A stretch of DNA of 64,000 bases from assembly GCF_001514535.1 (NCBI RefSeq), contig NZ_BCNO01000002.1, positions 1 to 64,000 on the forward strand, given 5' to 3'. Source of the DNA: Thermodesulfovibrio aggregans (lineage in GTDB: Bacteria > Nitrospirota > Thermodesulfovibrionia > Thermodesulfovibrionales > Thermodesulfovibrionaceae). Shown one piece after another: positions 14,543 to 51,132 of this stretch (position 1 is its first letter; every line of letters begins with the position of its first letter). Below the pieces are notes generated by a model that worked only from the letters and a program-made list of their open reading frames with translations, had not been told where the DNA came from and ran no database searches. Position numbers and translations under genes: made by a program.

Positions 14543-15102
14543 CTGCTGTCTCCATAAAAAAAGTTATTTTCTGCATCTTTTAAGAGAGGTAATTTTTTAT
14601 CTTTCTCTGAAAGTATAGGATTTTCAATGGGCCACTTTATACCGATTAAGGGATCATTCCATACTATTCCTCTATCCAAAGCTGGATCATACTCTGCGGT
14701 GCATTTATAAAGTATTTCACAATCCTCTAAAGCAACAAAACCATGAGCAAAACCTGGTGGAATCCAGAGCATGAATTTATTTTCCTCAGAAAGCTCAACG
14801 GCTACCCATTTAGCAAAGGTTGGAGAATCTTTTCTTATATCAACTGCCGCATCCCATATTTTACCTCTTATGCATCTAATCAGCTTTCCTTGCGCTTTTG
14901 GGTTAAGCTGATAGTGCAGTCCTCTTAAAATACCCTTTTTTGACCTTGAGTGATTATCCTGAACAAAGTTAAAACTTATATCTGCTTTAGCAAACTCAGA
15001 GTGTTTGAAGCTTTCAAGAAAAAAACCTCTTTCATCTTCAAATATTTTTGGTTTAATGATAATAACCTCTGGTATCTCAAGCTTAAAAAATTCAAATGGC
15101 AT
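14539..15102 (-). CDS. rmlC: dTDP-4-dehydrorhamnose 3,5-epimerase
   Basis: The 187-aa cupin enzyme has DERGFFLESF, FVQDNHSRSKKGILRGLHYQ with the catalytic His region, KLIRCIRGKIWDAAVDIRKDSPTF, and PPGFAHGFVAL. It epimerises C3 and C5 of the 4-keto sugar. It heads the rml operon. Its ATG lies directly at the end of a 94-bp insertion-sequence end (15105-15198), and the only upstream Shine-Dalgarno-like sequence, AGGGGGG, belongs to that repeat. Expression signals therefore appear to be borrowed from the mobile element. Confidence 0.94.
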   Translation of the reverse strand: MPFEFFKLEIPEVIIIKPKIFEDERGFFLESFKHSEFAKADISFNFVQDNHSRSKKGILRGLHYQLNPKAQGKLIRCIRGKIWDAAVDIRKDSPTFAKWVAVELSEENKFMLWIPPGFAHGFVALEDCEILYKCTAEYDPALDRGIVWNDPLIGIKWPIENPILSEKDKKLPLLKDAENNFFYGDSR

Positions 15103-15104
15103 TG

Positions 15105-15198
15105 TACTGCCCCCCTATAAAGTCTTTTCTTTCTGCTTATGCAGAAAGTTTAACCTCTACTAATTGACCGTGTCCACTTTTTAAGGGGTTCAGTATAT
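15105..15198 (-). repeat. IS3-type left end, copy 1 (94 bp), fused to rmlC
   Basis: This 94-bp block is identical to 15283-15376. On the minus strand it starts ATATACTGAACCCC with AAAAAGTGGACACG, typical of IS3-family terminal repeats, then has an 8-bp hairpin CTTTCTGC-ATAA-GCAGAAAG (15129-15148) and a GGGGGG Shine-Dalgarno-like run, ending seven or so bases before an ATG. Here the ATG is that of rmlC. Confidence 0.8.
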
Positions 15199-15279: not shown

Positions 15280-15282
15280 TTA

Positions 15283-15376
15283 TACTGCCCCCCTATAAAG
15301 TCTTTTCTTTCTGCTTATGCAGAAAGTTTAACCTCTACTAATTGACCGTGTCCACTTTTTAAGGGGTTCAGTATAT
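15283..15376 (-). repeat. IS3-type left end, copy 2 (94 bp), in front of OrfA start
   Basis: This copy is identical to 15105-15198 and is in its natural setting: its GGGGGG Shine-Dalgarno run precedes the OrfA ATG at 15279. Its outer end interrupts the Mutator-like transposase fragment at the GIDLKG codons, so this element jumped into that one. Confidence 0.8.
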
Positions 15377-48346: not shown

Positions 48347-50242
48347 TTAACTTAATTCCTTAAATCTTTCCCAATCAGTGTGGGGTAAAAAGAGCGCTGA
48401 AACATATTCATCCATAAATCTCTTTGACCTTGAAAGATCAATGTATGTCATCTTTTTAGCAATCTCCTCTGCAGTTTCTCTTAGTTGTCTGCTTAAGAGA
48501 CACAAAATAGCGCCTGTCAGGGAAGTGTTACCTAAAAATACGAATCTTTCCTCAGCAAGATTTGGAAGCATACCTATTTTTACAGCCTTTTTCACATCAA
48601 GAAACTCTCCAAATCCTCCTGCAATATAAACTTTTTTTAATTCTTTTTCCTGTATCCCCAGCTCTTCAAGAAGAGTTGAAATCCCAGCATAAATAGCAGC
48701 CTTTGCTCTTATAATGTTGTCAATATCTGATTGGGTTATGTAGCAATCCGAAGAAATAACGAATCTTATCTCCTCATCCTCTTCTTTGAACCCTGAACCT
48801 TGAATCGCCCGAAGGGCGGTTGAATCACCCGCAGGGTTGCGGGCGGTTGAATCGCCGTAAGGCGGTTGCACTTTGAACTTTATATGTTTGGACTTATCAA
48901 CAATTAGCTTTCCTTTCTGATCAACAACTCCGCTCATGAAAAGTTCTGATAAAATATCTATCATCCCACTTCCGCATATTCCTCTTGGAGGCACATTACC
49001 TATAACTTTAAATTCAAAACTATCGTTTTCCCGTTGATATCTAAAAACCTCTACTGCTCCCTCAGTTGCTCTCATTCCACAGCTTATTCCACTTCCTTCA
49101 AAACATGGTCCTGCAGATGTTGATGCTGTAACAAGAAAATCTCTATTACCAACCACAATTTCACCATTTGTTCCTATGTCAATAAACAAAGATAACTCTT
49201 CATTTTCATAAAGCCCTGATGCAAGCACTCCTGCAACAATATCTCCTCCTACATAACCAGCAACAGAGGGAATTGTGTATACAGGTATCTGCGAATCTGC
49301 TGAAAGTCTGGCATCAGAAACTCTCCATACTGGATAATGATTCAGTGTAGGGATGTAAGGCTCCTGCCTTATATACTTTGGATTAATTCCCCAGAAAAGA
49401 TGACACATTGTAGTATTGCCAGACAGTGTAACATAATAAATTCTGCCTTCTTTATTCCTCATTGAAACAGTATTTAAGAGAGCATTTATATCGTCAACAA
49501 TACACTTTCTTAAAATATTAAGTCCTTCAGGTTTTTCCTCTGCATAAACAATTCTCGTAATTACATCATCTCCGTAATTAATCTGAGAGTTATAACATGT
49601 AGCAACATCAACAATTCTTCCTTCTTCAAGATCCACCAAAGCCAGTGCTACTGTAGTAGTTCCAATATCTACAGCAACTCCGTAGATCTTTTTTGAATCT
49701 GAGACAAAGTCGATAATTTCATCATCTGTTATGGCTAAACTGACATGCCAGTTGTTTTGTCTTAAAAAATCTGAAAGTTGACAGGCAAGTTTCCTTGATA
49801 TTGATAAATCTTTGCCAGCTGCCTGTTTTAGTCTTTCAAAGTCTGCCTGAGAATCAATATCAGGTGGTTGTATTTTTAAGTTTACTCTTTTTACCAATGG
49901 ATTAAGCTCAATGGTTTTGAATATCTTTTCTATAATTTTTTCATTTGCAAGGGCTATTCTTTCAGAAACTGTGATTAACTGATGTGGCAATTCAATGAAG
50001 ATGTCGCTTTGAGGAAAACTCTGGCAGGCAAGAACAAAACCTTCAGATTTTTCATTTTCTGATATACCAAAGAAGGAAGTTGATTTTACTTTTCCCTCTA
50101 AAATTTTAATCTTACACCTTCCACAACTTCCTTTTCCACCACAGGATGCAGGAACATATACTGAATGATTCTGTAAAATCTGAAGAAGGCTTTCATCTTT
50201 TCCTTCAAAGACTTCACCACGATTTGTTCTTATTTTATACAT
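48347..50242 (-). CDS. Ferredoxin-ASKHA protein (RACo-like, DUF4445)
   Basis: The 631-aa protein has an N-terminal [2Fe-2S] domain with C34, C40, C43 and C73 (ASCGGKGSCGRCKIKI), then an ASKHA ATPase domain with VAVDIGTTTVALALVD, LSGNTTMCHLF, LFIDIGTNGEIVVG and IAGGFGEFLDVKKA. Such proteins reductively activate corrinoid proteins (RACo). No corrinoid protein or methyltransferase gene is nearby. Residues near 465-495 are an in-frame insertion of a repetitive element (48785-48880), in a region that is probably a surface loop. Confidence 0.85.
   Translation of the reverse strand: MYKIRTNRGEVFEGKDESLLQILQNHSVYVPASCGGKGSCGRCKIKILEGKVKSTSFFGISENEKSEGFVLACQSFPQSDIFIELPHQLITVSERIALANEKIIEKIFKTIELNPLVKRVNLKIQPPDIDSQADFERLKQAAGKDLSISRKLACQLSDFLRQNNWHVSLAITDDEIIDFVSDSKKIYGVAVDIGTTTVALALVDLEEGRIVDVATCYNSQINYGDDVITRIVYAEEKPEGLNILRKCIVDDINALLNTVSMRNKEGRIYYVTLSGNTTMCHLFWGINPKYIRQEPYIPTLNHYPVWRVSDARLSADSQIPVYTIPSVAGYVGGDIVAGVLASGLYENEELSLFIDIGTNGEIVVGNRDFLVTASTSAGPCFEGSGISCGMRATEGAVEVFRYQRENDSFEFKVIGNVPPRGICGSGMIDILSELFMSGVVDQKGKLIVDKSKHIKFKVQPPYGDSTARNPAGDSTALRAIQGSGFKEEDEEIRFVISSDCYITQSDIDNIIRAKAAIYAGISTLLEELGIQEKELKKVYIAGGFGEFLDVKKAVKIGMLPNLAEERFVFLGNTSLTGAILCLLSRQLRETAEEIAKKMTYIDLSRSKRFMDEYVSALFLPHTDWERFKELS
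48785..48880 (-). repeat. In-frame triple hairpin repeat inside the RACo-like gene
   Basis: On the plus strand TTGAATC recurs three times, each followed by a short, different stem-loop: GCCC-gaa-GGGC, CCCGC-agggtt-GCGGG and GCC-gtaa-GGC. The stems vary but stay self-complementary. The flanks share CCTTCGGGCGATTCAAGG with a repeat in the neighbouring GT9 gene (50612-50647). It encodes GDST, GDST and AIQGS peptides and keeps the frame. Confidence 0.75.
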
Positions 50243-50259
50243 GATTTTAAAATTATATC

Positions 50260-51132
50260 ATGAAAGCTCTTGTTTATCGCATGGGAGGATTGGGAGACAG
50301 TCTTCTTGTCTATCCGGTGCTTGAGATTCTAACAAATAAGGGATATGAACTAACTGTCTGGGGAAATCCTGAATACTTCAAGCTCGCGGTGAGGGCTGGT
50401 TTCTGTAAAAGGGTAATATTTTATCAACCAAAAGAAGATTTTGATTTGAAAATAGTTTTTTCAAAAAACAGAGAACTTCTCAACAGTAATAGCTCAATCC
50501 ATATTAATCCAATTCCTGAAGAGAAAATCTGGGTAGTGGATTACTATTTGAAAAAACTTGGACTTGAAAATGAAAAGTTTTCTAAAACTCTTCCATTAGC
50601 CCATCAGCCTTCGGCGATTCAAGGTTCAAAGTTCAAGGTTCAAGATGGAAAGTTATGCATTGTTCATCCGGGCAGTGGTTCAAAAAAGAAAAATACTGAT
50701 TTGACTTTTTTCTTTGAGTTAGAAAAATTTTTAAAAAAATCGGGCTTTGATGTTCTCTATATTGTCGGACCAGCAGAAGTAGAATTCACAAATATATTCA
50801 AAAACTCAGTTTACATTGAAGACTCTCTGGAAATTGCAAATACTCTTCTTAAAGCAAATCTTTATATCGGACTTGACAGCGGAGTAAGTCATCTAAGTAG
50901 CTATCTCGGAGTTCCTTCAATTATTATCTTCGGACCAACAGACCCTGAAGTGTGGCATCCAATTGGTGAGAATTATATAATAATTCGTTATGAAGGCTGC
51001 AAACCCTGTTTTCCTAATGTATGTGAAGATAGAAGATGCCTAAACCCGGATTTTTTAATCTCAGAGTTCTGCAAATATGTCAAAAAGCTTGAAGTTTCTC
51101 AAGCTCAAATAATGGGCATAAAGAATCAATAG
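50260..51132 (+). CDS. Glycosyltransferase family 9 (heptosyltransferase-like)
   Basis: The 290-aa protein starts KALVYRMGGLGDSLLVYPVLE, the GT9 N-terminal signature, and has LCIVHPGSGSKKKN and LKANLYIGLDSGVSHLSSYLGVPSIIIFGPT for ADP-heptose-like donor binding. It is divergent from the RACo-like gene and is likely an LPS core enzyme. Between the two Rossmann halves AIQGSKFKVQDGK is encoded by a repeat also found in the RACo-like gene. Its last 72 bases overlap the SapC gene convergently. Confidence 0.85.
   Translation: MKALVYRMGGLGDSLLVYPVLEILTNKGYELTVWGNPEYFKLAVRAGFCKRVIFYQPKEDFDLKIVFSKNRELLNSNSSIHINPIPEEKIWVVDYYLKKLGLENEKFSKTLPLAHQPSAIQGSKFKVQDGKLCIVHPGSGSKKKNTDLTFFFELEKFLKKSGFDVLYIVGPAEVEFTNIFKNSVYIEDSLEIANTLLKANLYIGLDSGVSHLSSYLGVPSIIIFGPTDPEVWHPIGENYIIIRYEGCKPCFPNVCEDRRCLNPDFLISEFCKYVKKLEVSQAQIMGIKNQ
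50612..50647 (+). repeat. In-frame repeat unit inside the GT9 gene
   Basis: GGCGATTCAAGGTTCAAAG, preceded by CCTTC and followed by TTCAAGGTTCAAGATGG, matches the minus strand of 48781-48812 with a few changes. Both copies are translated in the same frame as AIQGS-x-FK, though the host genes are unrelated and on opposite strands. Confidence 0.7.

Follow-up and report, generated by a model that had tools for sequence, protein, structure and literature searches.

A dispersed hairpin-and-heptad mini-element resembling Rickettsia palindromic elements, in genes and operon junctions of Thermodesulfovibrio

Short hairpin-bearing repeats occur at about 25 sites in the genome of Thermodesulfovibrio aggregans (G000; 1,997,652 bases in three contigs), both inside protein-coding genes and between the genes of operons. 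We consider it very probable that these repeats constitute a non-autonomous dispersed palindromic mini-element of ~25–155 bp, most of whose insertions postdate the divergence of the host from its nearest sequenced congeners, and whose copies would survive according to the strand that each presents to its surroundings. The copies, the empty sites, the keeping of reading frames, the orientation rule, the patchy distribution and the clustering described below were observed directly, and it is the presence of inserts in some genomes and their absence from others that suggests mobility.

The element was noticed in a 64 kb window (the whole stretch of DNA that was analysed, 64,000 nucleotides), where a sequence-only reading had proposed that two neighbouring, unrelated genes share an in-frame repeat that gives AIQGS-x-FK in both products. 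This holds: GCGATTCAAGG has exactly two matches in the window, at 48798-48808 (minus strand) and 50614-50624 (plus strand), and both are in frame in genes whose products are unrelated according to Pfam. The translation around the repeat is GDSTARNPAGDSTALRAIQGSGFKEE in the RACo-like gene and QPSAIQGSKFKVQDGK in the glycosyltransferase family 9 (GT9) gene. The two genes and their element copies are as follows.

48347..50242, minus strand: RACo-like ASKHA-domain protein with a 2Fe-2S domain, 631 aa (PF14574, PF17651, PF00111)
48783..48882, minus strand: element copy within the RACo-like gene, with hairpin units CGCCTTACGGCG; CCCGCAACCCTGCGGG; CGCCCTTCGGGCG
50260..51132, plus strand: glycosyltransferase family 9 (Glyco_transf_9), 290 aa (PF01075)
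50605..50646, plus strand: element copy within the GT9 gene, with hairpin GCC-TTC-GGC, GATTCAA and three GTTCAA heptads

As had been described, the RACo copy comprises three TTGAATC-hairpin units, starting at 48800, 48820 and 48847, with stems that differ (CGCCC/GGGCG, CCCGCA/TGCGGG-type and CGCC/GGCG). GATTCAA lies between the hairpin units, the heptads AAGGTTCAGGGTTCAAAG come after them, and the whole adds ~30 residues (VQPPYGDSTARNPAGDSTALRAIQGSGFKE) to the protein. The GT9 copy, which scores 43 bits with a covariance model of the family, codes SAIQGSKFKVQ, or ~9 extra residues. Taken together, the RACo repeat stretch folds with an unexceptional energy (z = -0.99); the conserved feature is the short stems rather than a fold of the whole stretch. 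When the RACo-like protein is aligned with its homologue 3zyy, residues 447 and 498 bound a gap in the query alignment and the insert lies inside this gap; AlphaFold predictions from single sequences gave pLDDT values (36 for GT9, 32 for RACo) that are too low to place either insert in a loop. Elsewhere in the window, two 97-bp copies that are 99% identical lie 178 bp apart (15102-15198 and 15280-15376).

A genome-wide search, which the sequence-only reading had put forward as a check, revealed dispersed copies. The tandem heptad pair TTCAARGTTCAA has 62 matches in G000 and a reversed control pattern has none, and the covariance model, which comprises hairpin and heptads, detects ~25 separate loci with complete or partial copies (best E 1e-13). 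Each copy is composed of heptads, (AG/GG-TTCAA)n, and short G/C hairpins flanked by ATTCAA, and, read in the TTCAA sense, the copies have the consensus CCTCC-[CACCC-TNNC-GGGTG]-ATTCAA-[CCGCCC-TNN-GGGCG]-ATTCAA-(AGTTCAA)1-2-GGTTCAA. Stems are 4–6 bp long and include CGCCC/GGGCG, CACCC/GGGTG, TGCCC/GGGCA and AGCCC/GGGCT, with TNN(C) loops, and the units downstream of a stem follow in the order ATTCAA, AGTTCAA (one or two) and GGTTCAA. Pair changes were read from candidate stems and from flank-defined units, because a MAFFT alignment of the hairpins misplaces 5′ arms wherever loops differ. Among 29 hairpin candidates, a set that had been selected for perfectly paired stems, the outer pair varies between C-G, T-A and A-T and the second pair between G-C and A-T, which are compensated changes. 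A set of units picked solely on flanking sequence, into which chance units also entered, gave 160 of 315 pairs, compared with a mean of 106 and a maximum of 139 after shuffling. The earlier description of a mobile, protein-coding and palindromic repeat, like the Rickettsia elements but of other sequence, finds support, with two amendments: heptad arrays and hairpins together, not a single palindrome, form the core, and arrays of heptads only extend far more widely in the order.

Six intact genes of G000 carry seven in-frame inserts, and protein comparison of all six with their congeneric orthologues shows the orthologues to be without them. The RACo insert (30 aa) is missing from 11 orthologues and the GT9 insert (9 aa) from 10 of 11, and the GT9 orthologue of the nearest relative, the congener G013, has decayed heptads (FKVQDSK) at the insert site. 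Relative to their congeneric orthologues, UbiE is longer by 8 aa, EtfA by ~10 aa and the CHASE2-adenylate cyclase by 23 aa at each of two inserts, and MalQ has a long insert. DNA alignments with congeners show empty sites in the RACo (four relatives), UbiE, EtfA and cyclase genes. The inserts in enzymes are single stretches of ~8–30 residues or slightly more. All three heptad reading frames are used, as GDSKFKVQ (MalQ) or DSKFKVQ (EtfA), AIQGSKFKVQ (GT9) and GQFKVQSSRFKVQ (cyclase), as would be anticipated for a 7-bp unit with a TTCAA strand free of stops. Copies are not confined to noncoding DNA, since genic ones exist; many keep frame inside unrelated genes, and their peptides are not conserved in orthologues, in keeping with what had been supposed from the window.

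FtsZ is probably a seventh gene with an insert, judging from its linker, the alignment of which is too variable for proof. FliW was rejected as a host gene: it has a similar string, yet its orthologues align without an insert. In the congener G002, two EtfA loci (C1:1517387 and C1:1568590) have identical scores, which suggests a recent duplication.

The two strands of the element are used differently. Genic copies stand in the TTCAA sense in every case, whereas, where neighbouring genes are co-directional, 13 of the 14 copies between them have the TTGAA sense in the direction of the genes (two-sided binomial p ~0.002), the lone exception being a copy before a MinD-like gene (C1:840032). Of 18 copies, every one can be read through in one frame or more in the TTCAA sense, whereas 17 have no open frame in the TTGAA sense. 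Intercistronic copies in the TTGAA sense present UGA whichever frame is read, and their terminal GGAGG lies at the Shine-Dalgarno site of the downstream gene; most intercistronic copies lie at, or a few bases from, that GGAGG. Copies in the spacers associated with TrpS, TyrS, FlgM, HisC, RbfA-NrnA and RsmI are missing from the aligned spacers of four congeners (G013, G010, G002 and G008). Several of these copies give the preceding gene a new stop. Upstream of trpS, for example, relatives have TTTTTTAGGAGG and G000 has TTTTTTATTGAACC...GGGTGGAGAGGAGG, and in the DNA alignments the TGA of the element substitutes for the relatives' TAG before trpS and for their TAA before hisC. At the convergent MinD/UvrC junction (C1:840.8 kb) both genes end in the element. 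Intercistronic spacers in G000 are very short and leave few places for a copy to sit.

The terminal CCTCC is probably the element's own sequence, because two genic copies (in MalQ and the first in the cyclase) have it where relatives lack GGAGG. The terminal GGAGG of intercistronic copies may nevertheless be partly target rather than element, because the Shine-Dalgarno site near these copies pre-exists in relatives.

We suggest that copies survive since each strand is suited to a context of its own. A copy in the TTCAA sense has at least one stop-free frame, which would yield a bland FKVQ(S/G)SK-type peptide at a site that the protein tolerates. In the TTGAA sense between operon genes, a UGA would end the upstream gene and the GGAGG end would keep a Shine-Dalgarno site for the downstream gene. 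The same regularities could instead reflect a functional RNA, in which selection maintains the hairpins before Shine-Dalgarno sites as regulators of operon expression, the genic copies being by-products. The single orientation of 13 of the 14 copies, with a hairpin beside the Shine-Dalgarno site, and the like arrangement in G013 (L258) and in G026 (L262), a genome of another family, accord with the two-context proposal and would also fit such a role. We nonetheless regard regulation as rather unlikely to be the explanation, given that orthologous operons in congeners lack the element, that hairpin number differs among copies and that an Rfam search of the window repeat stretch returned no match.

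The distribution among relatives also bears on the mini-element interpretation. Three consecutive TTCAARG units have 29 matches in G000, two in G013 and none in the other 14 congeners. A hairpin plus heptad occurs in four of 396 genomes of the phylum, namely G000 (15 matches), G026 (6), G013 (1) and G023 (1, in a context that shows no clear hairpin), and the covariance model has 11 matches in G013 and 32 in G026. Full elements are patchy, being common in G000 and in a single species from a different family. The cas2-side site is occupied in two genomes: G000 has a copy with the 3′ end of cas2 on one side and a large CRISPR array on the other (C2:402000-416000; L067/L205), and G013 has an element beside cas2 as well (L257). 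Because this site is occupied in both, the copy predates the split between G000 and G013, and because the GT9 and cas2-side copies are common to these two genomes, the family predates its main expansion. Exact searches of a genome-contig collection (two patterns) and of viral contigs, from which the host or its near kin may be missing, gave no matches, and phage and plasmid collections contained no match to the element.

Arrays of heptads only are common in the order, are far more widespread than the hairpin elements and are often in frame. Their hosts elsewhere in the order, with genes named by eye, include a Ddl-like gene (L168) and the n-regions of signal peptides (L169, L175, L180 and L181). 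Such arrays, together with the heptad-only inserts in UbiE, EtfA and FtsZ, could reflect local duplication rather than spread of the hairpin element. This raises the alternative that the entire family is simple-sequence expansion, in which slippage made the heptads independently at each locus and the apparent hairpins are G/C tracts with no relation to one another. The breadth of the heptad-only arrays lends this some weight; one of them, at contig ends in G047, a member of the order, is a run of ~20 GGTTCAA units without variation. However, unlinked copies in G000 have the common order hairpin-GATTCAA-AG-AG-GG of non-identical units and common hairpin designs, and the inserts in congeners are absent, not shortened, which makes slippage an improbable origin for the family.

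Several arrangements in relatives deserve record beside these arrays. In QueC-like genes of two families (L176 and L179), heptad inserts occupy one common site with a small hairpin ahead (CCTGC-TGTC-GCAGG or similar), which would reflect either shared ancestry or an insertion hot spot. In G026 the hairpin-heptad unit is often trailed by another dispersed repeat, AATTAGATGACAGATGCTGCGAAAAGGCTTTAAACTTGGCACTTG (L182, L186, L188 and L194), which suggests composite elements. TTCAAGG heptads in G047 are joined to a different companion sequence, AAAGACAAACAAAAGCAACGAACAGCAGAGCG (L163-L167).

Copying of the mini-element would proceed by a trans-acting recombinase or by template switching at the hairpins. 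REP elements carry a GTAG or CGTC tag, and the GTAG class is linked to RAYT transposases (PMC3733652); on an alternative reading the present element is of this type, with hairpins mobilised by a Y1 (HUH) tyrosine transposase. The present element resembles them in having short hairpins with a hairpin-end tag, sited mainly between co-directional or convergent genes, and some intragenic copies, which have also been described for REPs (PMC3733652). A search for Y1_Tnp (PF01797), however, had no match in the host genome and was positive in five control genomes; among the copies listed neither GTAG nor CGTC is apparent as a tag at the foot of the hairpins, the flanks being ATTCAA and AAC/CTCC; and heptad tails form no part of the REP description in PMC3733652. 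A REP/RAYT-type origin is therefore highly improbable, and the Y1 transposase hypothesis was rejected since PF01797 is absent from the host genome.

Template switching guided by microhomology requires no transposase: hairpin-forming single strands at replication forks would prime on an existing copy. Besides the lack of a detected Y1 transposase, strong local clustering agrees with such a process. Seven element loci fall within 13.4 kb (C1:838.9-852.3 kb), around the rbfA-nrnA-minD-uvrC-cyclase-fecR genes, and seven loci within 15 kb were obtained in 0 of 100,000 random placements; likewise, the RACo and GT9 copies are 1.8 kb apart. Insertion occurs beside GGAGG, a sequence shared with the element end, and copies grow by whole modules, the number of hairpins reaching four at C1:852 kb and in MalQ. 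Conversely, some copies are separated by hundreds of kb, and both orientations occur. The transposase search covered one family, Y1, and a dedicated trans-acting recombinase outside this family may be at work. Template switching is accordingly a tentative proposal, to which we would give somewhat less than an even chance. No target-site duplication is evident in the DNA alignments with congeners, whose divergence blurs the junctions, and no excision was found. With similar reserve, the mini-element might be described as two-faced, with a stop-free peptide strand for proteins, core enzymes included, and a strand for operon junctions that combines stops in all frames, a hairpin and a Shine-Dalgarno site, and as spreading without a classical transposase.

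Rickettsia palindromic elements (RPEs) are long stem-loops of 105-146 bp with terminal inverted repeats (Ogata et al., reviewed in PMC2229807). The Thermodesulfovibrio element shares with RPEs a dispersed, hairpin-capable repeat (29 hairpin candidates, ~25 loci) that is either intergenic or fused in frame within conserved genes, is missing from orthologues and, on sequence grounds, leaves the reading frames of host genes intact. It differs in having several 4–6 bp stems and heptads in place of one long stem-loop with terminal inverted repeats, in a 7-bp tandem motif used in all three frames, in a GGAGG end and an orientation rule tied to Shine-Dalgarno sites, and in the phylum of its host. The element is a protein-coding palindromic mini-element that resembles RPEs, yet is no member of that family. 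Peptide repeats encoded by palindromic DNA are also known from the palindromic amphipathic repeat coding elements (PARCELs; PMC2996958), which form tandem 25-residue domains; the repeat proteins that contain them have no assigned function, and many are membrane-targeted. The Thermodesulfovibrio inserts, in contrast, are short single stretches, and the proteins that carry them are conserved enzymes. Cyanobacterial short tandemly repeated heptanucleotides (STRRs) also form dispersed arrays of a heptanucleotide unit, with a sequence unlike that of the present element, and we know of no hairpin module or rule of in-frame genic insertion for them. Our literature search, beyond the reach of which lay most subscription papers, returned no description of the element, no bacterial-repeat paper with the heptad strings and, for the genus, no paper on repeats. 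It is likely, although not certain, that the sequence family is new.

Coding mini-elements of this kind are best known from Rickettsia, and the present family, whose host is a thermophilic sulfate reducer, provides a separate case for which sequenced congeners show many empty sites. To the original reading of the window the analysis adds the rule that ties orientation to stops and Shine-Dalgarno sites, the failure to detect a Y1/RAYT-type transposase and the patchy occurrence of full elements. Annotators should be aware that an FKVQGSK-type stretch in a protein from this order can be an insertion rather than a conserved motif. The family offers a system in which to ask how non-coding repeats turn into protein segments, how selfish repeats persist where genomes are compact and rich in operons, and whether the copying of hairpin repeats can dispense with a transposase.
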